Shown in pieces: positions 11,292-39,631 of a stretch of 43,255 nt of DNA (its first letter is position 1; each line of letters begins with the position of its first letter). The position numbers and the translations under genes were made by a program. The notes under the pieces are model-generated. The model was not told the origin of the DNA. It ran no database searches and worked only from the letters and a program-made list of their open reading frames with translations. The DNA comes from a virus. Location of the stretch: positions 1 through 43,255 of the IMG/VR virus record IMGVR_UViG_3300030098_004371; one strand, 5' to 3'.

Positions 11292-11477
11292 ATGGATGAT
11301 CTCGATCTACGTTCCTTTTTGCTTAAAAAAATTCACGAAGATCGTCAACGCATCGCAGAAACGATGCTCGACGGTTTGTTAGCCGACATGGCCCATTATA
11401 AAGATTTGCAAGGGAGGCTTGAAGTTCTCAAAGAAATGGAGCAAAATATTGCAGATTTTTACAAAATGGAACACTAA
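11292..11477 (+). CDS. small helical protein, unknown
   Basis: 61 residues, entirely helical (MDDLDLRSFLLKKIHEDRQR at the start, then a second amphipathic helix). The stop TAA shares its last A with the ATG of the GroES-like gene. No recognised motif; position suggests a head-assembly accessory. Confidence 0.6.
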   Translation: MDDLDLRSFLLKKIHEDRQRIAETMLDGLLADMAHYKDLQGRLEVLKEMEQNIADFYKMEH

Positions 11478-11917
11478 TGAGCAAACTCAAATTAAAAACG
11501 CCTTACGTGGCGGAAAAAGAAAGAGTTCTTGATCCTTCACTTCTAGACAAAAATGCAATTGATCGTCTGCCTCAACCCACAGGTTGGCGGCTTTTGGTCA
11601 TTCCCTTTTTTGGTGAAAGCAAATCGGCTGGCGGTATTGCGCTCACAAAGGAGACACGCGAGCGGGAGCAGCTTGCCTCTGTCGTTGCCAAGGTTATTCG
11701 TATGGGTCCGACGTGCTACGATGACGAGAAAAAGTATGGGACAACACCATGGTGCGCCGAAGGCGACTGGATTGCCATAGGTCGATATGCTGGGGCTCGT
11801 TTTAAAGTCCCCATCGAAGAAGGCGACAAGACAGAATTTATGGAGGCACGCATCATAAATGACGATGAAGTGATTGCCACGTTACTTGAACCGACTGACA
11901 TAGTGAGTTTTCGATGA
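11477..11917 (+). CDS. GroES-like co-chaperonin
   Basis: 146 residues. The body from 'LPQPTGWRLLVIPFFGESKSAGGIALTKETRE' on has the Cpn10 layout: a first beta strand 'P.GWRLLV', then a flexible Gly-rich mobile-loop segment (SAGGIALT) that would contact GroEL, then a core ending 'EVIATL'. About 40 extra N-terminal residues and an insert with CYDDEKKYG separate it from bacterial GroES, as in phage co-chaperonins (compare T4 gp31). It sits just upstream of scaffold and MCP, so its likely client is the capsid protein. Confidence 0.75.
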   Translation: MSKLKLKTPYVAEKERVLDPSLLDKNAIDRLPQPTGWRLLVIPFFGESKSAGGIALTKETREREQLASVVAKVIRMGPTCYDDEKKYGTTPWCAEGDWIAIGRYAGARFKVPIEEGDKTEFMEARIINDDEVIATLLEPTDIVSFR

Positions 11918-13893: not shown

Positions 13894-15096
13894 ATGGCTA
13901 TTTCAAGAGCACAGCTCGCAAAAGAGTTGGAACCCGGCCTCAATGCTTTGTTTGGGCAGTCCTACGATTCATACGTTAATGAGTATGAGGAGATTTTTGC
14001 AATCGAGGATTCGCAGCGAGCATTCGAGGAGGAGGTGTTAATTACTGGCTTTGGTAATGCACCAACAAAAACTGAAGGTCAATCAGTGGCTTTCGACAAC
14101 GCAAATGAAGGTTACACTGCCCGCTATACGCACGATACTGTTGCGTTAGCATTCGCGCTTGATAATTTCCGTGGGTGCGCTGCGTAGGAATACGCAGGAC
14201 ATAAGATGGTGAATTCAGTGAACATCTCAAAAGAGACAATACTGAGCCAAGCCTCGAAAGAGGAAGGTGCAACGACTATCCTGCAAAGGAGTACACTCAA
14301 GCGAGTGGAAGCGCCATCCAACCAGAACGGTTGAAGATATAGTCTGATCTGCATGGTGACATGCAGCGGCTCCCTGAAAAGGGAGCGGGATCGAAAGTAG
14401 CGAATCGATCTGAACAAAAAAGTCATTATAACTGATGACTTATGAACGGAAGAGGCTTTGGAAGATAATTTGTATGACTCCCTTGGGCGTCGGTACGTCA
14501 AAGCGTTGGCTAAAAGCATGCAAAACACGAAGGAAGTGAAGGGCGCCAGCGTTCTGAACAATGCTTTCTCGACGAGTTTTGCTGGCGGTGATGGCAAGCC
14601 TTTGATTGCAACTGACCACCCGCTTGCGGGAGGCGGCACATTGGCAAACCGTGCCACTACTATGGCTGACCTTAATGAAACATCGCTTGAGGATAATCTG
14701 ATTGATATTTCGACGTTTACGGACGACCGTGGATTGACTATCAGCGTTCGTGCGACAAAACTTGTGGTTCCGCCACAGCTCGTTTTTGTTGCTGATCGAA
14801 TCCTCAACTCGACCCTAAGATCAGGAACAGCGGATAACGATATCAACGCTATTCGTAACACGGGCGTATTGCCGGGTGGTTATACCGTCAATCACTTCCT
14901 GACAGATCCTGATGCTTATTTCATCCTGACAAGCGTCACCGACGCTGGTGAAGGTTTGAAGATGTTCCAACGAACTGCTATGGAAACAACCATGGAGCCA
15001 GATTTCAGCACTGGCAATCTCCGATATAAGTCGAGAGAGCGGTACTCGTTTGGACACTCTGACTTCAGAGGTATCTTCGGGTCACAAGGCGCTTAG
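13894..15096 (+). CDS. major capsid protein, split by a group I intron (join 13894-14159, 14445-15096)
   Basis: Spliced product 305 residues (266 + 652 nt = 306 codons with stop). Start ATG 13894 has AACAGGAGG upstream. Exon 1 ends '...DTVALAFA' plus two bases of a Leu codon; exon 2 restores 'L-TEEALEDNLYDSLGRRYVKAL', the expected HK97-fold-type MCP continuation (A-F-A-x-T-E-E-x-x-E-D-N). Without splicing, translation stops at TAG 14185-14187 after 97 residues. The rest of exon 2 includes 'KPLIATDHP', typical of marine podovirus MCPs. It follows scaffold and decoration genes and is followed by a terminator. Capsid fold is inferred, not tested. Confidence 0.88.
14160..14444 (+). ncRNA. group I self-splicing intron in the MCP gene, ORF-less
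   Basis: 285 nt. P1: exon end CGCGCU (14154-14159) pairs with guide GGUGCG (14174-14179), with U-G at the splice site. P10: UUCCGU (14167-14172) pairs with exon-2 ACGGAA (14446-14451). The intron ends in G (14444). Core: the R-like element GTGCAACGACTATC (from 14268) and S-like element AAGATATAGTC (14334-14344) form P7 (GACTAT with ATAGTC). P5-like hairpin CCTC-GAAA-GAGG (14252-14263); P9-like stem GCTCCCT-GAAA-AGGGAGC near 14360-14377. No homing endonuclease frame. Boundaries restore the MCP frame exactly. Confidence 0.92.
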
Positions 15097-15135
15097 AGAG
15101 TTTTCTCTCTCCCTGCCGAAAGGCATTGGGTTTGA

Positions 15136-15162
15136 AGGGGGGTGCTTGCACCCCCTTTTTTT
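15136..15162 (+). terminator. Rho-independent terminator after MCP
   Basis: Stem GGGGGTG-CTTG-CACCCCC followed by seven T (15156-15162). It ends the head transcript. On the opposite strand the convergent gene (stop at 15161) reads into the same GC hairpin but lacks an equally good U-run. Confidence 0.9.
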
Positions 15163-16015
15163 ATGCTACGTCTTCGAAGCTTTCAACATAAGCTGCCTTT
15201 GTGGGACGCTTGTAAAACCCAAACTTTTCGTCATCTTTGGATCGCTCGACAGCAGCAGTAAACTTGATTTTATCGCCTCGACTAACATCATCGATGGCGC
15301 TCGGAACAGATCCCCACAGTTTGAAACCGCGCCTGTCCTTGACAAGCATCTTTAATGTCCAACCGTACATAGACTCCTGCGACTTAACGCTTAACACCTC
15401 ACCGCATACGTCAATACGACCATATGGTACAGGTTCTGCCGCAGCTAACTCTTCCTCTCGGCGCTTGAGCTCTTCCTCTCTGCGCTTGGCTTCTTCTTCT
15501 CTCTTCACTTTGCGAGGCGCATCAACAAACTCTTCAAGCAAATCAGCGACAACTTTGCTTCGGCAATAGACGTGCGAGCAAAGTTCTCCGTCATATTCAA
15601 ATGTCGCACCTTGCTCCATACCCATGCGGTTTCGGTCGAAATTAGGCGCTGTCCGATTTAAGTTAAGCGCTTCTTTCAAATGCAAAAACACCCACTCAGG
15701 CACATACTCCGCGCGCACTTTTTTGTCGCCGCCGCCCATGCCTAAACCAAATTGTGAGCCGATGGGTAAAAACTCACCCGCCATAAACTCTCCGTCAACA
15801 AGCTCACCACCCTCGCGGTACTCCCAAACATAAAAATCGCAGGGCGCGTGGATTGTCATGCCGCTTTTGCCAATAGTCGGCGACAGTCCTTCGTTCCACT
15901 TTTCGCCTGCTTCAATGAACTTTTTCATGCGCGTTTCATCAGCCTTACGCATACGCTCATTCAGCTTCTCGACTGCAACTTGAATTGAGGTGGCTAATTC
16001 TTGAATTGTTTCCAT
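15161..16015 (-). CDS. early-type protein with OB-fold-like C-terminal domain
   Basis: 284 residues, reverse strand. Helical N-terminus (~1-45), an alpha/beta middle (45-165), a charged coiled linker with repeated 'REEE.KRREEELKRREEELAA' (~165-190), and a C-terminal domain 'YGRIDVCGEVLSVKSQES...LKMLVKDRRGFKLWGSVPSAI..GDKIKFTAAVE' whose strand pattern suggests an OB-fold nucleic-acid or protein-binding module. I recognise it as a recurrent hypothetical phage protein without assigned function. Upstream leader: GCCCC/GGGGC hairpin (16031-16044) then AGGAGAGAGAG before ATG. It is embedded in the late region in reverse. Confidence 0.8.
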   Translation of the reverse strand: METIQELATSIQVAVEKLNERMRKADETRMKKFIEAGEKWNEGLSPTIGKSGMTIHAPCDFYVWEYREGGELVDGEFMAGEFLPIGSQFGLGMGGGDKKVRAEYVPEWVFLHLKEALNLNRTAPNFDRNRMGMEQGATFEYDGELCSHVYCRSKVVADLLEEFVDAPRKVKREEEAKRREEELKRREEELAAAEPVPYGRIDVCGEVLSVKSQESMYGWTLKMLVKDRRGFKLWGSVPSAIDDVSRGDKIKFTAAVERSKDDEKFGFYKRPTKAAYVESFEDVA

Positions 16016-16058: not shown

Positions 16059-16445
16059 TTAGATCAACTTAGGGTGAACTTCCTTGAGCTTGTTATAGCG
16101 GCCCAGAAACATTTTTCCCCCGGCTTTAATGTCCGCATCGTCATCCCAGTTGCCTTCCAAAAAATCAATGGAAGCTCGATTGTGCAAATCGTCTGCAAAC
16201 ACTGCCAAAACATCGACATCAACTAGGGTAGAGGGCTTCACTTTCCCAGATGACAAGGCAACAAGAAAGTCGATGTAACGCTGCTCTAACATGTTGTCCA
16301 CGTCGTCTGCCTCGATCCCTTTTGCACATTCAACAAAATTATCGATCTCACTGTAGGCATATTGATTGAGGGTGAACCGGATGCCAAATTTGACCTGTGG
16401 CACCATTGGCTTTTCCTTTGGTAATTCCCAGCTAAGTCTTTTCAT
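16059..16445 (-). CDS. early-type protein, unknown
   Basis: 128 residues, reverse strand, soluble and acidic in the second half (GNWDDDADIKAGG). No family recognised. First gene of a two-gene reverse operon. The leader ACAGGAGAGAGAAG immediately before ATG is the same as in the 36.3 kb early genes, and the promoter at 16484-16512 drives it. Expression class is therefore inferred to be early; biochemical role unknown. Confidence 0.75.
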   Translation of the reverse strand: MKRLSWELPKEKPMVPQVKFGIRFTLNQYAYSEIDNFVECAKGIEADDVDNMLEQRYIDFLVALSSGKVKPSTLVDVDVLAVFADDLHNRASIDFLEGNWDDDADIKAGGKMFLGRYNKLKEVHPKLI

Positions 16446-20518: not shown

Positions 20519-21214
20519 ATGAGTTATCTGCAAAGCAATATTCCCCACTTCCCCTGCTTCGTTCGCCGCGAATACACCCATAATCACCAGCAATACCATG
20601 GTGAGTTTTTGCATGCCCTTGCTATTGCGGTGACCACAATTCCTGATCGATCCCTCAGTTTTCAAGTAGTCTTCACGGGCGCTGAAACTTATGATGACGA
20701 CAGCGAGCCAAATGTCCACGGCGGAGCGATGTGGGCACGGATGCCAATCAACGCTTTGGTTGCTGACGTGCCGCTTGAAGACTGGCCCGAGCCGATGATG
20801 GCTCACTTAGTGCAGCCATGGGATTGTAGCTCGCGACATCACGATGTCATCGTGCTCGACCGTGTGAGCAGCTCCCCTTGGATCTGCAAAATAGCGGGAG
20901 AATTTCACACCGCAAAGTATTATTTTACGGTTGACTACACCGATCACTCAATCGCGGATGATCCAGCACAGCATAAACAAAGCCACGTTCTTGAGCTCAC
21001 AGATGCTGGACCGTGGACTGGGAATATCATTGCCTTGCCAAACAACCGAGTTCGCTGCACTAATCCTGCGTTGTGGCAAAGAGGCGAAGGGGCGCCTGAC
21101 TTTAAGCCGTCGCAGTGGGTTATCAACGCAGAAAGTGATGACAGCTACCTCGACGCAGGCTATACTTTCGACAATCTTTATGCTAAGGGTGGGCAGGATG
21201 GCGACGAGCGGTAG
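20519..21214 (+). CDS. conserved protein of the head-tail region, unknown
   Basis: 231 residues, AGGAGCGCAC before the ATG. Start 'MSYLQSNIPHFPCFVRREYTHNHQ' and Trp-rich internal boxes (GGAMWARMPI, LVQPWDCSSRHHDVI). It follows the basic gene and precedes adaptor genes. I have seen this protein repeatedly in marine phage genomes without function. It overlaps the next gene by 17 nt. Confidence 0.7.
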   Translation: MSYLQSNIPHFPCFVRREYTHNHQQYHGEFLHALAIAVTTIPDRSLSFQVVFTGAETYDDDSEPNVHGGAMWARMPINALVADVPLEDWPEPMMAHLVQPWDCSSRHHDVIVLDRVSSSPWICKIAGEFHTAKYYFTVDYTDHSIADDPAQHKQSHVLELTDAGPWTGNIIALPNNRVRCTNPALWQRGEGAPDFKPSQWVINAESDDSYLDAGYTFDNLYAKGGQDGDER

Positions 21215-21887
21215 TAAAAACTTTGAACTAGATGTTGCAGACTATGTCGAGGAAGCGTTTGAGCGCGTTGGCCTTGAACTTCGAACTGGTTATGATCTCA
21301 AAACAGCCACCCGCAGTCTCAATCTTATGCTCGCAGAATGGGCCAATCGTGGTCTCAACCAGTGGACTGTTAAGCAAAAAATCATCAGTTTGTCCGTCGG
21401 CACGGTTAGCTACACGATAGATTCGGTCAATCCCACAGCCACAATCGATGTGCTCGATGCCTTCAACCGCGAAACGATCAACTCCACCGACAATGATCTT
21501 ACGATGACACGCATGAGTCGTGCCGAATATTCTCATTTGGCGACAAAGACAAGCACTGGCAAGCCAACCCAATTCTTCGTTGACAAGCAGATTTCACCAA
21601 CGATTACGGTATGGCCCAGTCCAGATAAAGCTGGTTATTCAGTGCATCTAAACGTGCTTAGCCGAATGGATGATGCAGACGCAGCCGTTGACACGCTCGA
21701 TATCCCTTTTCGGTTTTATCCGTGTTTAGCCGCAGGACTTGCCTACTATTTAGCGATGAAACGCGCGCCAGAGCGTATGCCAATTCTTAAACAAGTTTAC
21801 GATGAAGAGTTTCAACGAGCCATGGACCAAGACCGTGCTAAAACATCGTTTTACATCACGCCCGGCACTTACTCGGATACGCCCTGA
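21198..21887 (+). CDS. head-tail adaptor, P22 gp4-like
   Basis: 229 residues from ATG 21198 (GGGCAGG upstream; an in-frame ATG at 20931 is inside the previous gene). The N-terminus 'FELDVADYVEEAFERVGLELRTGYDLKTATRSLNLMLAEWANRGLNQW' is the helical motif of gp4-type/packaged-DNA-stabilising adaptors, which bind below the portal. The C-terminus has 'PFRFYPCLAAGLAYYLAMKRAPER', also typical. Confidence 0.8.
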   Translation: MATSGSKNFELDVADYVEEAFERVGLELRTGYDLKTATRSLNLMLAEWANRGLNQWTVKQKIISLSVGTVSYTIDSVNPTATIDVLDAFNRETINSTDNDLTMTRMSRAEYSHLATKTSTGKPTQFFVDKQISPTITVWPSPDKAGYSVHLNVLSRMDDADAAVDTLDIPFRFYPCLAAGLAYYLAMKRAPERMPILKQVYDEEFQRAMDQDRAKTSFYITPGTYSDTP

Positions 21888-22201
21888 TGCCATACGCCAG
21901 CGACAAATACGCTTACGGGATCTGCGATATTACTGGTTTTCGGTATCGGCGCAAAGACATGAAGAAAACGTGGCAGGGTTTTGTAGTTGGGCCCGACCAA
22001 TTTGACGCAAAGCATCCACAGCTTTTCCCAAGGAAAGCCCCGCCTGATCCACAAGCCATTAAAGACGCAAGGCCAGATACTGCGGATGACAACAACTTTT
22101 TTCAGGTCTATACAAACGTCGGAGATGGAATTCTTGGCAAGCAACTTGACACATATGAGGTGACAACAAGCCTCGGTGAGATAACGGTGACGACATCATG
22201 A
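21887..22201 (+). CDS. small conserved structural protein
   Basis: 104 residues. 'MPYASDKYAYGICDITGFRYRRKDM' with the later box 'DPQAIKDARPDT' recurs between adaptor genes in marine phages. The start overlaps the preceding stop by one base. Probably a tail/adaptor component; the Cys near the N-terminus might be structural. Confidence 0.7.
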   Translation: MPYASDKYAYGICDITGFRYRRKDMKKTWQGFVVGPDQFDAKHPQLFPRKAPPDPQAIKDARPDTADDNNFFQVYTNVGDGILGKQLDTYEVTTSLGEITVTTS

Positions 22202-22848
22202 GCTTCACATTAGCGACTTTGAAAAGCACGATCCAAGATTACATGCAAGTGAATGAAACAACCTTCAATAACAATCTTGATGAATTCATCAGAACATCTG
22301 AAAGCAGAATCTTTCAACTGGTTCAATTGCCTCAACAAAGAAAAAACGTCACTGGAACAGCAACGAGCGGGTTACGATTTCTGAAAATACCAGAAGATTT
22401 TTATGCGCCGTTTTCACTGGCGGTTATTGACAGCAGCAACAAGTATCATTATTTAGAACTGAAGCATGTATCTTTTCTAAAAGAATTTAGCCCGACTACG
22501 ACGACGACGGGACAACCTCGCTACTACAGTATTTTTGATGACACGGCTTTTGAACTCGCACCGATACCCGATTCAAACATCACAGTGGAAATTCATTACC
22601 TGAACAAGCCAACGTCCCTGACATCAGGCATTGATAGTGGCACAACGCTGCTGTCAACTGATTATCCAGATGCGTTATTTTTTGGCGCATTAGTCGAAGC
22701 TGCGGTTTTTTTGAAAGAGCCAAGCGATGTGATTGTAAACTTTGATCAGCGGTTCAAAGAGCAAATCGCGCGCATGAAGAATCTGGCAGAGGGTAGGCAG
22801 ACAAAACAAGAATATCGATATGACCAGTTGCGAGTCAATGTGACGTGA
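22198..22848 (+). CDS. tail adaptor/tube protein, SU10-adaptor-like
   Basis: 216 residues. N-terminal helices 'LATLKSTIQDYMQVNETTFNNNLDEFIRTSESRIFQLVQLP' and a central 'DFYAPFSLAVIDSSNKYHYLELKHVSFLKEF' are typical of SU10-type phage adaptors (also seen as tubular proteins in podoviruses). C-terminal 'DALFFGALVEAAVFLKEP' fits. ATGA overlap. Confidence 0.8.
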   Translation: MSFTLATLKSTIQDYMQVNETTFNNNLDEFIRTSESRIFQLVQLPQQRKNVTGTATSGLRFLKIPEDFYAPFSLAVIDSSNKYHYLELKHVSFLKEFSPTTTTTGQPRYYSIFDDTAFELAPIPDSNITVEIHYLNKPTSLTSGIDSGTTLLSTDYPDALFFGALVEAAVFLKEPSDVIVNFDQRFKEQIARMKNLAEGRQTKQEYRYDQLRVNVT

Positions 22849-34934: not shown

Positions 34935-35654
34935 ATGCATCAGTTAACAAATTACATGCTATCGCTGCAATCAAACTGGTTTGTCAATCAACCACTCCTG
35001 CAGGCAGTGAATGATTCTGTGCCGTTGATAGCCAGATACAAGGCGAAGTCTGGACGCGAGTCTTTGGAGAAGACCGAGTTGCGGCAGATGTGCAGACAGA
35101 TCTTTCCAGACATTTATCGTTTTCCATTGTTGCGTCGGCAATACTGCACGATGCTTCTGGATGAGATAGAGTTGATGCGCGGCAGGCTGATGTTCGAAAC
35201 GAACGACAGTGAAGACGAGCTGCGACAGATACCAGAGATTGTGTTGAAAGACAAGTGTCCCGAGCTCTATCGGCAAATGTGGTTTTTGGTGCGCACAGTC
35301 ATCAACCCGGTCATTATGTCGCTTTACTGCCGAGACAATCTAGAGATTGCTTCAGTGCAGATTGCCAACTATAACCCGAAAGATAAACAGCAGGGCGCTT
35401 GGCATCACGATGACTCAGCAGATATTTCCGTGGTTGTGCCACTCAACACAAAAAAATACGAGGGCGGCGGCACCGAGTTCTACGGTAAAGGTAAGATGAA
35501 GCCGCTCCCGACTGGGCATGCATTAATCTTTCCTAGCTTTTCAAATCTTCACCGAGGGCTTGCAGTCGAGTCAGGTGACAGGTATCTTCTAGTCTTCTGG
35601 CTCGTTGACAGAACGCGCGCGGTTGATCTGGTTAGTGAGGTTTTTCAAGAATGA
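34935..35654 (+). CDS. 2OG-Fe(II) oxygenase, prolyl-4-hydroxylase-like
   Basis: 239 residues. Double-stranded beta-helix dioxygenase: metal ligands H-x-D in 'WHHDDSAD' (~157-160) and His206 in 'SNLHRGLAVESGDRYLL', with Arg216 for 2-oxoglutarate. The surrounding 'NPKDKQQGAWHHDD' and 'GGGTEFYG' pattern matches P4H/PLOD-type phage oxygenases. Would hydroxylate a protein, nucleic acid or other target. Start uncertain (no strong ribosome site; ATG 34956 possible). Confidence 0.85.
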   Translation: MHQLTNYMLSLQSNWFVNQPLLQAVNDSVPLIARYKAKSGRESLEKTELRQMCRQIFPDIYRFPLLRRQYCTMLLDEIELMRGRLMFETNDSEDELRQIPEIVLKDKCPELYRQMWFLVRTVINPVIMSLYCRDNLEIASVQIANYNPKDKQQGAWHHDDSADISVVVPLNTKKYEGGGTEFYGKGKMKPLPTGHALIFPSFSNLHRGLAVESGDRYLLVFWLVDRTRAVDLVSEVFQE

Positions 35655-36007
35655 AGGCATTTGTTTACAAAGCCAAAATAGTTCGAGTCGTCGATGGCGA
35701 TACGGTGGACTGCGACTTGGACCTTGGTTTCTCAACGATTCTTAAAAAGAAACGGATAAGACTCTCGGGTATCAACGCGCCTGAATCAAGGACGCGCAAT
35801 CTTGAAGAAAAGAAACTTGGGCTCGCTGCAAAGGCAAGACTTGGCGTGCTGTGCGGTGATGAAGTCATTTTGGACAGTGAGGGCGTCGGGAAGTTTGGTA
35901 GAATCCTCGGCGTGCTGTACACGCTTGACGGCGAAAACATCAATGAGAAACTCGTTGCCGAGGGGCACGCTCGGCATTATGATGGCGGTAAGCGAACAGG
36001 TTGGTAA
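35651..36007 (+). CDS. staphylococcal-type (thermonuclease) nuclease
   Basis: 118 residues. SNase motifs: V-D-G-D-T-V-D (~15-20), R37-L-S-G-I-N-A-P-E45-S-R (catalytic Arg and Glu), and R84 in K-F-G-R-I-L-G. Missing signal peptide, so it acts in the cytoplasm, perhaps degrading host DNA. ATGA overlap with the oxygenase. Confidence 0.9.
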   Translation: MKAFVYKAKIVRVVDGDTVDCDLDLGFSTILKKKRIRLSGINAPESRTRNLEEKKLGLAAKARLGVLCGDEVILDSEGVGKFGRILGVLYTLDGENINEKLVAEGHARHYDGGKRTGW

Positions 36008-37767: not shown

Positions 37768-38527
37768 GACTAAACTCCGTCACTTCGTCGCCCCGGTTAA
37801 AAGGCAGATAGCTATCCTCTTTCTTGCATGAAATGCCCAAATTAAGCGCCTGCTCATTCTTAGCAATGCCGTATTGGATAGCAGTCTCTGACAGCGTGTA
37901 CACGCCGTATGGATACGGCGCTGCCTTCTCAACGGCTAAGAAGTAAAACTTATCAGCCGTCAAACCTGAATGCCTGCACGCAGTCAGGTAAAAAGCTGCT
38001 TGCTGGAAATACAAGAAATTATTAATTGCAGATCGAAAGCCTCTGGGTGATGCATCGCGGCACGTCTTCAAGTCCCAGACGTTGATGCCGTCGTACCAGT
38101 CAATCTTGGCTTTGCATGGATGACCGAACCACTCAAAACAAACGGTCAGTTCAACCTGATCACCTTTCTTCGGCACATAATCAATCAAGACCTCACGACG
38201 CGCCATGCAGACATCAATCAGATCTTGCTTAACGGGGGTGCGATCACCTACGCCCTGCAGCCAATCGTCATATTCCTGCTTGCCTGCCTTAGTACGTTTG
38301 TTAACTTCTGGTTCAAGAATAAATTCATCCCAGAACTTGTCGAGCTCCAAAAACACAGTGTGCTGCACCCGCCCTTCGAGCAGGGCAGGACTCTCGGTCC
38401 TTTTCTCCGCGTAGCGCCAAGTGAACGGGCACTTGGCGATTGACGTGAGATCATGACTGCGCCACGCCGGGATCGAGTCATAGGTTGGGTAGTCGAGATC
38501 GTGATATATTCCTGTTTTAAATTTCAT
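37751..38527 (-). CDS. RecE/ExoVIII-like PD-(D/E)XK exonuclease
   Basis: 258 residues. N-terminal 'YDSIPAWRSHDLTSIAKCPFTWRYA' and 'LLEGRVQHTVFLE' (His56), then D143 in 'KIDWYD', D152-L-K154 and the Q176-x3-Y180 motif, together the PD-(D/E)XK core of RecE/ExoVIII-like exonucleases. Would resect 5' strands to make ssDNA for recombination; partner SSB-like protein is encoded at 41108. No annealase is seen in the window. Confidence 0.85.
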   Translation of the reverse strand: MKFKTGIYHDLDYPTYDSIPAWRSHDLTSIAKCPFTWRYAEKRTESPALLEGRVQHTVFLELDKFWDEFILEPEVNKRTKAGKQEYDDWLQGVGDRTPVKQDLIDVCMARREVLIDYVPKKGDQVELTVCFEWFGHPCKAKIDWYDGINVWDLKTCRDASPRGFRSAINNFLYFQQAAFYLTACRHSGLTADKFYFLAVEKAAPYPYGVYTLSETAIQYGIAKNEQALNLGISCKKEDSYLPFNRGDEVTEFSHEDLY

Positions 38528-39384
38528 GATGTAATTAACCTCATTCCGTATTCATTGTTACCCTGCTTGACCTCAACGCCTTCTTTCAACACAAATCGGT
38601 TTTTTTTGAAGGGCCTGTAGTCAACGTGGTGGTGCCATCTGTTGAAACGCCAAACCACAGAGGCTACATCAGGGTGTAGCTCTGCAATCATCTGGCTTTT
38701 CGGCTTCGTGCCTTCCGTTGCGTAAAATTCTTTGGTGTTACCGCCAGACATCCGCTGCGTGGTAACCTTACCGCAAAGGAAAGCGTTGAATTGCACGGTG
38801 CAATAGCCGTCTTTGAGAACCCGCAAGCAGATGTCTGTGTCTTCGTTGTATCGGCCTCTCCATCTGAAGGGGACGCTGTTATTTATCAAAAGGCAGCTAT
38901 AAATCCTTGTGTTCAGCACGAAGGGAGGGACAGGATCAGTGGATTTGCAAAACGAATAATAATTCAATCCGCTTATGGCGACGTTTTGATACCGTTCAAC
39001 AAAGTCTTCGGCAGCTCGTAGAGTTGCGCCCGTCCTTACGACAATCTTTTCGTTGTTATGAAGCCTGTGAAACGCATCGAGATTGTCATCCATCACCCAG
39101 TGCATTTTTGACCCCTCGGAGATCGAATGATCCCACGCAAAGTTCCTAGCAGCGCCCGGCCCTTTTGACTTACCTTCTTCGTCGTCACAGGTGTCATATT
39201 CTTCGAGATAGTGCTCTGGCAGGACAAGCAGCCTATCCTCCCCGACTACATCCGCATAATTTTGCAGCTCCTGCTTTTCGACAATCACACGAAAAGGCAC
39301 CCCCATTTTATCTAGCGCCCTAGCTGTCAAAAGGTTGTGCCAACGCCCTTTGCTGACAATATAAACGGGGTGTTTAGCCGTCAT
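38524..39384 (-). CDS. TET-associated-type glycosyltransferase
   Basis: 286 residues from ATG 39384 (39387 alternative). Motifs: 'PVYIVSKGRW' (~6-15), 'GAARNFAWDHS', the D-D-N donor-binding box in 'HWVMDDN' (~99-101), 'FVLNTRIYSCLLI' and 'RWRGRYNEDTDICLRVLK' (~175-190), ending a GT-A fold with 'FNAFLCGK'. This set matches the TET-associated glycosyltransferase family of phages, proposed to glycosylate oxidised 5-methylpyrimidines. No TET/JBP gene is visible here, but a 2OG oxygenase lies at 34935. Substrate is inferred. Confidence 0.82.
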   Translation of the reverse strand: MTAKHPVYIVSKGRWHNLLTARALDKMGVPFRVIVEKQELQNYADVVGEDRLLVLPEHYLEEYDTCDDEEGKSKGPGAARNFAWDHSISEGSKMHWVMDDNLDAFHRLHNNEKIVVRTGATLRAAEDFVERYQNVAISGLNYYSFCKSTDPVPPFVLNTRIYSCLLINNSVPFRWRGRYNEDTDICLRVLKDGYCTVQFNAFLCGKVTTQRMSGGNTKEFYATEGTKPKSQMIAELHPDVASVVWRFNRWHHHVDYRPFKKNRFVLKEGVEVKQGNNEYGMRLITS

Positions 39385-39631
39385 CATCAACCCATGCTTT
39401 TTTGTTGTGATCTGCACCCCAGTGGGATTTGAAAGGGAACCAGATGCTTTTAGTTTTATAGGTGAGCTGCTGATCAATCAGGGTTGAAAAAACTTCAAGA
39501 TCCGCCTGAGTTTCAAAACGTATGTTGATACAAGCAAACGGTTCTTTTTTGCCCTGCTCAAACGCAGGCATATCTTGCCAGTGTTCGTCCCACCAATTAG
39601 GCTCTTCTCCAAAAAAATTACCTTGCTTCAC
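39374..39631 (-). CDS. small partner protein of glycosyltransferase, conserved
   Basis: 85 residues from GTG 39631, overlapping the stop of the upstream gene (GTGA) with GAGGAG upstream. 'KQGNFFGEEPNWWDEHWQDMPAFEQ' then 'INIRFETQADLEVFSTLIDQQLTYKTKSIWFP'. I recall this F..Q.D.E.F..L....T.KTKSIW.P module in phages near glycosyltransferase or ParB-like genes; role unknown. It overlaps the glycosyltransferase start by 11 nt. Confidence 0.75.
   Translation of the reverse strand: MKQGNFFGEEPNWWDEHWQDMPAFEQGKKEPFACINIRFETQADLEVFSTLIDQQLTYKTKSIWFPFKSHWGADHNKKAWVDDDG

Follow-up and report, generated by a model that had tools for sequence, protein, structure and literature searches.

Introns have been described in phage capsid genes. 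The mycobacteriophage LittleE carries a probable group I intron in its major capsid gene; the exon terminates in U and the intron in G, and splicing was shown by reverse transcription PCR and virion protein sequencing (PMC3706429). Uncultivated crAss-like Delta and Zeta phages also have group I introns in their major capsid protein (MCP) genes (PMC7886860). Introns without an open reading frame (ORF) are known as well: that of phage BAKA, a relative of the LittleE intron, is 265 bp long and lies in a tail gene (PMC3706429), and trans-acting nucleases home ORF-less introns in T4-related and other phages (PMC2988022, PMC3984707). Here we describe positions 14160-14444 of IMG/VR virus record IMGVR_UViG_3300030098_004371, which interrupt its MCP gene. 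The window analyzed is the whole virus record, 43,255 nucleotides (nt). Judged from its sequence and predicted fold, this insert is almost certainly a structurally complete ORF-less group I intron with the splice sites given below, a confidence that concerns the element and not its mode of spread.

The LittleE intron shares the gene type and terminal bases, but it is ~820 nt long, contains an internal endonuclease reading frame and belongs to another phage and MCP family (PMC3706429). The crAss-like introns were found via endonuclease domains and split one MCP gene into five pieces (PMC7886860), whereas the window MCP has one compact insert without a nuclease. The introns of T4 td and of T4-like phages (IA2 type; td, nrdD) have the same core with helices P7.1 and P7.2, and a 28-nt block (14339-14366) recurs unchanged in a T4-like td intron (L105) and an nrdD intron (L103). 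As in collaborative homing systems, an ORF-less intron lies at a conserved site where a separate nuclease could mobilize it (PMC2988022, PMC3984707); those systems have such a nuclease, whereas none was found in the proteins scanned here. With capsid-gene introns already published for LittleE and the crAss-like phages, both the element and the type of gene have precedents. The new contribution is a defined family of ORF-less introns that share one MCP codon, have guides coevolving with the exons, occur patchily and show a footprint in the flanks. A first-pass annotation of the window had called the site unusual; the gene is indeed an uncommon one for introns, but the published cases and 25 further contigs with the same intron weaken that description.

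The interrupted capsid gene and its splice sites

The MCP frame opens at 13894 and ends at an in-frame TAG, which leaves an unspliced product of 97 amino acids (aa). It picks up again at 14445 and runs to 15096; the second ORF as listed (14458-15096, 212 aa) starts from the first start codon. The features of the junction are:

13894-14159, plus strand: MCP exon 1, codons 1-88 plus two bases of Leu89, ending GCG CU; aligns with uninterrupted relatives
14154-14179, plus strand: P1, exon CGCGCU (14154-14159) with internal guide GGUGCG (14174-14179); U-G wobble at the 5' splice site
14160-14444, plus strand: group I intron, IA2-type, 285 nt, no ORF; RF00028 match, P1, P10, terminal G, covariation in 17 alleles
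14167-14172, plus strand: 5' strand of P10, UUCCGU, with exon 2 ACGGAA (14446-14451); covarying column 35/321, also in the minimum-energy fold
14185-14187, plus strand: in-frame TAG closing unspliced translation at 97 aa
14445-15096, plus strand: MCP exon 2, last base of Leu89 through the stop

Joining 14159 to 14445 rebuilds the Leu89 codon (CU plus A) and AFALTEEALEDN, giving an MCP of 305 aa. Many joins preserve the frame; only this one follows the group I rules: exon 1 then ends in U14159, which forms the P1 wobble with G14174 at the cleavage site, and the last base of the intron is G14444. A join one base later (14160/14446) yields the identical protein but was rejected because the intron would end in A. 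In the sequence, P1, P10, the U·G pair and the terminal G together define the two splice sites. The first-pass annotation had predicted this arrangement. The ORF reading bears out its coordinates for the frame break and the resumption, P1, P10, P7 and the terminal G all lie where it had placed them, and the rejoined Leu codon gives the protein sequence it expected. Its description of the intron as ORF-less is also correct, as 285 nt hold no endonuclease gene and leave no room for one.

The spliced MCP matches the major head protein family phrog_371 (4.3e-23), and exon 2 alone matches the Pfam family PF10124, Mu-like gpT (6.1e-09). The comparison with relatives that had been proposed gives an end-to-end alignment with the 80 uninterrupted IMG/VR proteins kept for it (67-89% identity), all of which read through the junction stretch without an insertion. 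The protein also aligns over its full length with 21 uninterrupted phage records, most of which bear a capsid or head protein annotation; among them are Pelagibacter phages HTVC023P and HTVC027P, Roseobacter phages CRP-901/902 and phage DSL-LC04.

In the precursor messenger RNA (mRNA), the guide segment would pair with the end of exon 1 to form P1. A guanosine held at P7 would attack after U14159. Exon 1, still anchored through P1 and P10, would then attack with its free end after G14444. Ligation would join Leu89 and give the full 305-aa capsid protein. The intron very probably excises itself from the MCP message in this way. The sequence itself shows the fold, the two splice sites, the intron-exon coevolution and the restored protein, and from them we infer the splicing reaction.

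Fold, carriers and kinship of the intron

The Rfam model RF00028 matches 14150-14366 with 90.9 bits (gathering score 50, E-value 3.8e-22) over model positions 1-253, which is the whole model and answers the covariance-model check suggested in the first pass. No other Rfam family was detected in the 43-kb window. The fold of 14150-14452 has a z-score of -6.5, with 0 of 100 shuffles equally stable. The minimum-energy structure includes P2, P3, P4 to P6a, P7.1, P7.2, P8, P9, P9.1, P9.2 and P10. The P3-P8 and P4-P6 core, in which P3 and P7 cross, is present as well. The assigned elements inside the intron are:

14180-14197, plus strand: P2, CUGCGU/ACGCAG; two pairs with compensatory change
14205-14318, plus strand: P3, GAUGGUG (14205-14211) with CGCCAUC (14312-14318); covariance model, alleles
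14215-14268, plus strand: P4, P5, P6 and P6a (GAAA loop); covariance model, fold, alleles
14274-14344, plus strand: P7, GACUAU (14274-14279) with AUAGUC (14339-14344), expected site of bound guanosine; invariant in 17 alleles
14280-14307, plus strand: P7.1 and P7.2, additional hairpins typical of group IA introns; compensatory change in 5 of 8 pairs
14320-14332, plus strand: P8, AACC/GGUU; covariance model, alleles
14349-14410, plus strand: P9, P9.1 and P9.2; fold, alleles
14420-14441, plus strand: optional hairpin AAGUCAU/AUGACUU just 5' of the terminal G; missing in L110 and L088/L096

On these features the subtype is IA2, an assignment made from P7.1/P7.2, the T4-like core and the block shared with td.

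The same compact intron (257-288 nt) is carried by 25 further IMG/VR contigs that contain both junctions. They came from two kinds of pattern scan, one combining the P7 strand with downstream exon sequence and one using the P9 block. In 23 of them (L082, L083, L084, L086, L087, L089-L092, L094, L099, L110, L116, L122, L125-L133) the intron occupies the same Leu codon, referred to as site A; L082 is identical to the window at the intron locus. In the other two (L088, L096) it lies 5 nt upstream within the preceding Phe codon, site B, with its own P1 and P10. In silico resplicing restores the MCP frame in 25 of 25 contigs (305-306 aa where the contig is complete), and every reconstructed intron ends in G. 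Two more candidates, L109 and L121, run off the ends of their contigs and are outside this count; L085, L093 and L095 from the first pattern scan are chance matches, not introns. Several carriers are near-duplicates, and 19 distinct intron alleles, window included, entered the alignments.

The site-B intron (L088:3210-3527, L096:700-1017; its junction also at L287:6460-6486) is without the 3' terminal hairpin. It is only 74-85% identical to the site-A introns and therefore may be a separate arrival.

Covariation was evaluated over 84 pairs in 17 distinct site-A alleles. Standard pairs form in 97.7% of cells, and in 99-100% of cells from P3 to P8. The least conserved helix is P9.1 (72% paired), because its length varies. 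Two-sided changes occur in 24 of the 84 pairs, with compensatory changes in P3, P4, P6a and P8; cells with such changes number 60, compared with 16.9 in shuffles and 1-9 with slid partners. The pairs that join intron to exon also change together. P1 columns 22/41 are GC in nine alleles, AU in seven and GU in one, columns 23/40 are CG in 13 and UA in four, and P10 column 35/321 is CG in 13, UA in two and GC in one; the P1 wobble is UG in 17 of 17. Therefore, the guide segment tracks each phage's own codons.

The stop that interrupts the genomic MCP frame would also be expected if the gene were merely broken, by decay or by an assembly or sequencing artifact. The full covariance-model match, the compensatory changes in the helices and the same type of insert in many independent contigs, with the frame restored exactly, already refute this explanation, and we give it practically no weight. 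A break of the gene without an intron is likewise ruled out, and no such allele was seen among relatives; all broken alleles found carry the intron, but the scans used intron sequence.

Most relatives lack the intron. We collected 227 with a complete, uninterrupted MCP, and the DNA identity between such empty alleles and carriers reaches 96% (L099/L194). This absence bears on the possibility that the intron is a regulatory RNA which delays or tunes capsid synthesis and has been retained for that role. Its location in a late, highly expressed gene and its intact structure would be consistent with such a role, but with most relatives lacking it and no regulatory signal found, this function is very unlikely.

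Introns elsewhere contain an identical copy of the block 14339-14366: a T4-like thymidylate synthase (td) intron with a GIY-YIG-type endonuclease (L105), an anaerobic ribonucleotide reductase (nrdD) intron (L103), a large terminase (terL) intron (L102) and an intron in a different major head protein family (L098). Unlike the td intron of L105, the one in the MCP has no coding content and interrupts a structural gene. Parts of the core match 616 phage records (E-value 1e-5). The shared block and these records identify the MCP intron as one branch within a type that is very common in phages; one database assigns more than half of the viral group I introns to IA2 (PMC11835236).

Two other contigs have the same core in different settings. 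In L098:1516-3562 it has a reading frame upstream and interrupts another major head protein family (phrog_1357), so capsid genes have been hit more than once. In L097:3-1655 the intron bears an HNH domain, and the protein it interrupts may, by eye, be another capsid protein, with exons that matched no family.

Apparent movement of the intron between phages

The introns are more alike than the genes that carry them. In L084/L086 the introns are 98.9% identical and the distal exon 75.5%, in L088/L096 the values are 96.9% and 75.9%, and in the window and L122 they are 94.1% and 72.3%. Mapped onto a distal-MCP tree with 98 tips, intron presence and absence require 13 state changes. The exon flanks also carry a signal. 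With P1 and P10 left out, carriers resemble one another at third codon positions within 45 nt of the junction by ~10 points more than they resemble empty alleles at matched distance, and beyond 45 nt the excess is gone. Third-position identity near the site minus that far from it is +0.047 for carrier-carrier and -0.043 for carrier-empty pairs (0 of 1000 permutations). When each 85% cluster is represented by a single allele (8 carriers, 38 empties), the difference amounts to 0.09, which 0 of 1000 label permutations reach, in a permutation that ignores the tree. An additional early codon in L084/L086 distorted a codon-aligned identity profile of the whole MCP; later tests used in-register regions.

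Because of the identity gap, the 13 changes and the flank similarity, the intron appears to move between phages without an endonuclease of its own. It would spread between co-infecting phages at the DNA level, by short-tract conversion around the site, a route that is supported but not proven by the comparison of alleles. The flank footprint is what short-tract co-conversion would leave. Horizontal spread with co-converted flanks, a trait of collaborative homing, is thus indicated indirectly by the comparative evidence.

A nuclease acting in trans, as in collaborative homing, would drive this spread. We infer it as the likeliest driver, with roughly even chances of being correct, because the intron encodes no nuclease itself. 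Several points weigh against it. No homing nuclease of the HNH, GIY-YIG or LAGLIDADG families was found in the scanned proteins of the window (Pfam, PHROGs), although diverged or distant genes could escape, and no homing nuclease family was found with Pfam in 49 proteins around the MCP genes of other carriers. The minus-strand genes adjacent to the MCP gave no nuclease match, with only phrog families of unknown function matching 15161-16015 and no match for 16059-16445. A search with the exon/intron 5' junction recovered no endonuclease-bearing version at site A (20 contigs, all known compact alleles), and the same kind of search found none at site B; versions with changed flanks would escape both. 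The footprint is treated as supporting evidence, because the permutation does not model the tree, and exon constraints for splicing, rather than conversion, could partly explain it.

The main alternative, somewhat less probable than a trans-acting nuclease, is that the intron is a spliced passenger for which ordinary homologous recombination among related phages is the only means of movement. The empty endonuclease scans favor it, as do MCP genes conserved enough to recombine and carriers with near-identical empty relatives. However, introns 94-99% identical are found within genes only 72-76% identical away from the site, and a shared tract of ~45 nt per side is short for unassisted exchange between genes so diverged.

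Reverse splicing into the MCP mRNA, followed by reverse transcription and recombination, is an improbable route. It could account for the related intron of L088 and L096, which lies 5 nt upstream and has a P1 and P10 of its own, since such local site shifts serve as circumstantial support in ribosomal DNA (PMC3984707), and the coevolution of the guide segment with the exons is also in its favor. The exon tract shared on both sides points instead to a DNA donor, and the divergence of the site-B intron from those at site A counts against a simple shift.

Neighboring genes and implications

The window has several other features. A gene for a GroES-like co-chaperonin (Cpn10, phrog_3188; 11477-11917) lies upstream of the capsid genes, and Cpn10 matches also lie beside the MCP in several other carriers. 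Behind the MCP is a terminator-like hairpin (15134-15159), directly followed by the minus-strand gene 15161-16015 (phrog_4750, unknown function) in an otherwise plus-strand region. A frame matching phrog_3704 ('ferredoxin', 20519-21214) overlaps an SU10 adaptor-like frame (20931-21887), and a second SU10 adaptor-like gene is at 22198-22848. A 2OG-Fe(II) oxygenase-like gene, with a weak endonuclease-like match at its C-terminus, an SNase-like nuclease gene and a TET-associated glycosyltransferase gene are found at 34935-36007 and 38524-39477; the three are possibly a DNA hypermodification set.

Automated annotation would report the main structural gene of this phage as two fragments, and surveys based on the MCP would overlook or split phages that carry the intron. 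The family forms a natural series, with the same intron in many related capsid genes, near-identical empty sites and paired changes in intron and exon. A lineage with few carriers and many empty relatives makes the persistence and movement of endonuclease-free introns testable.
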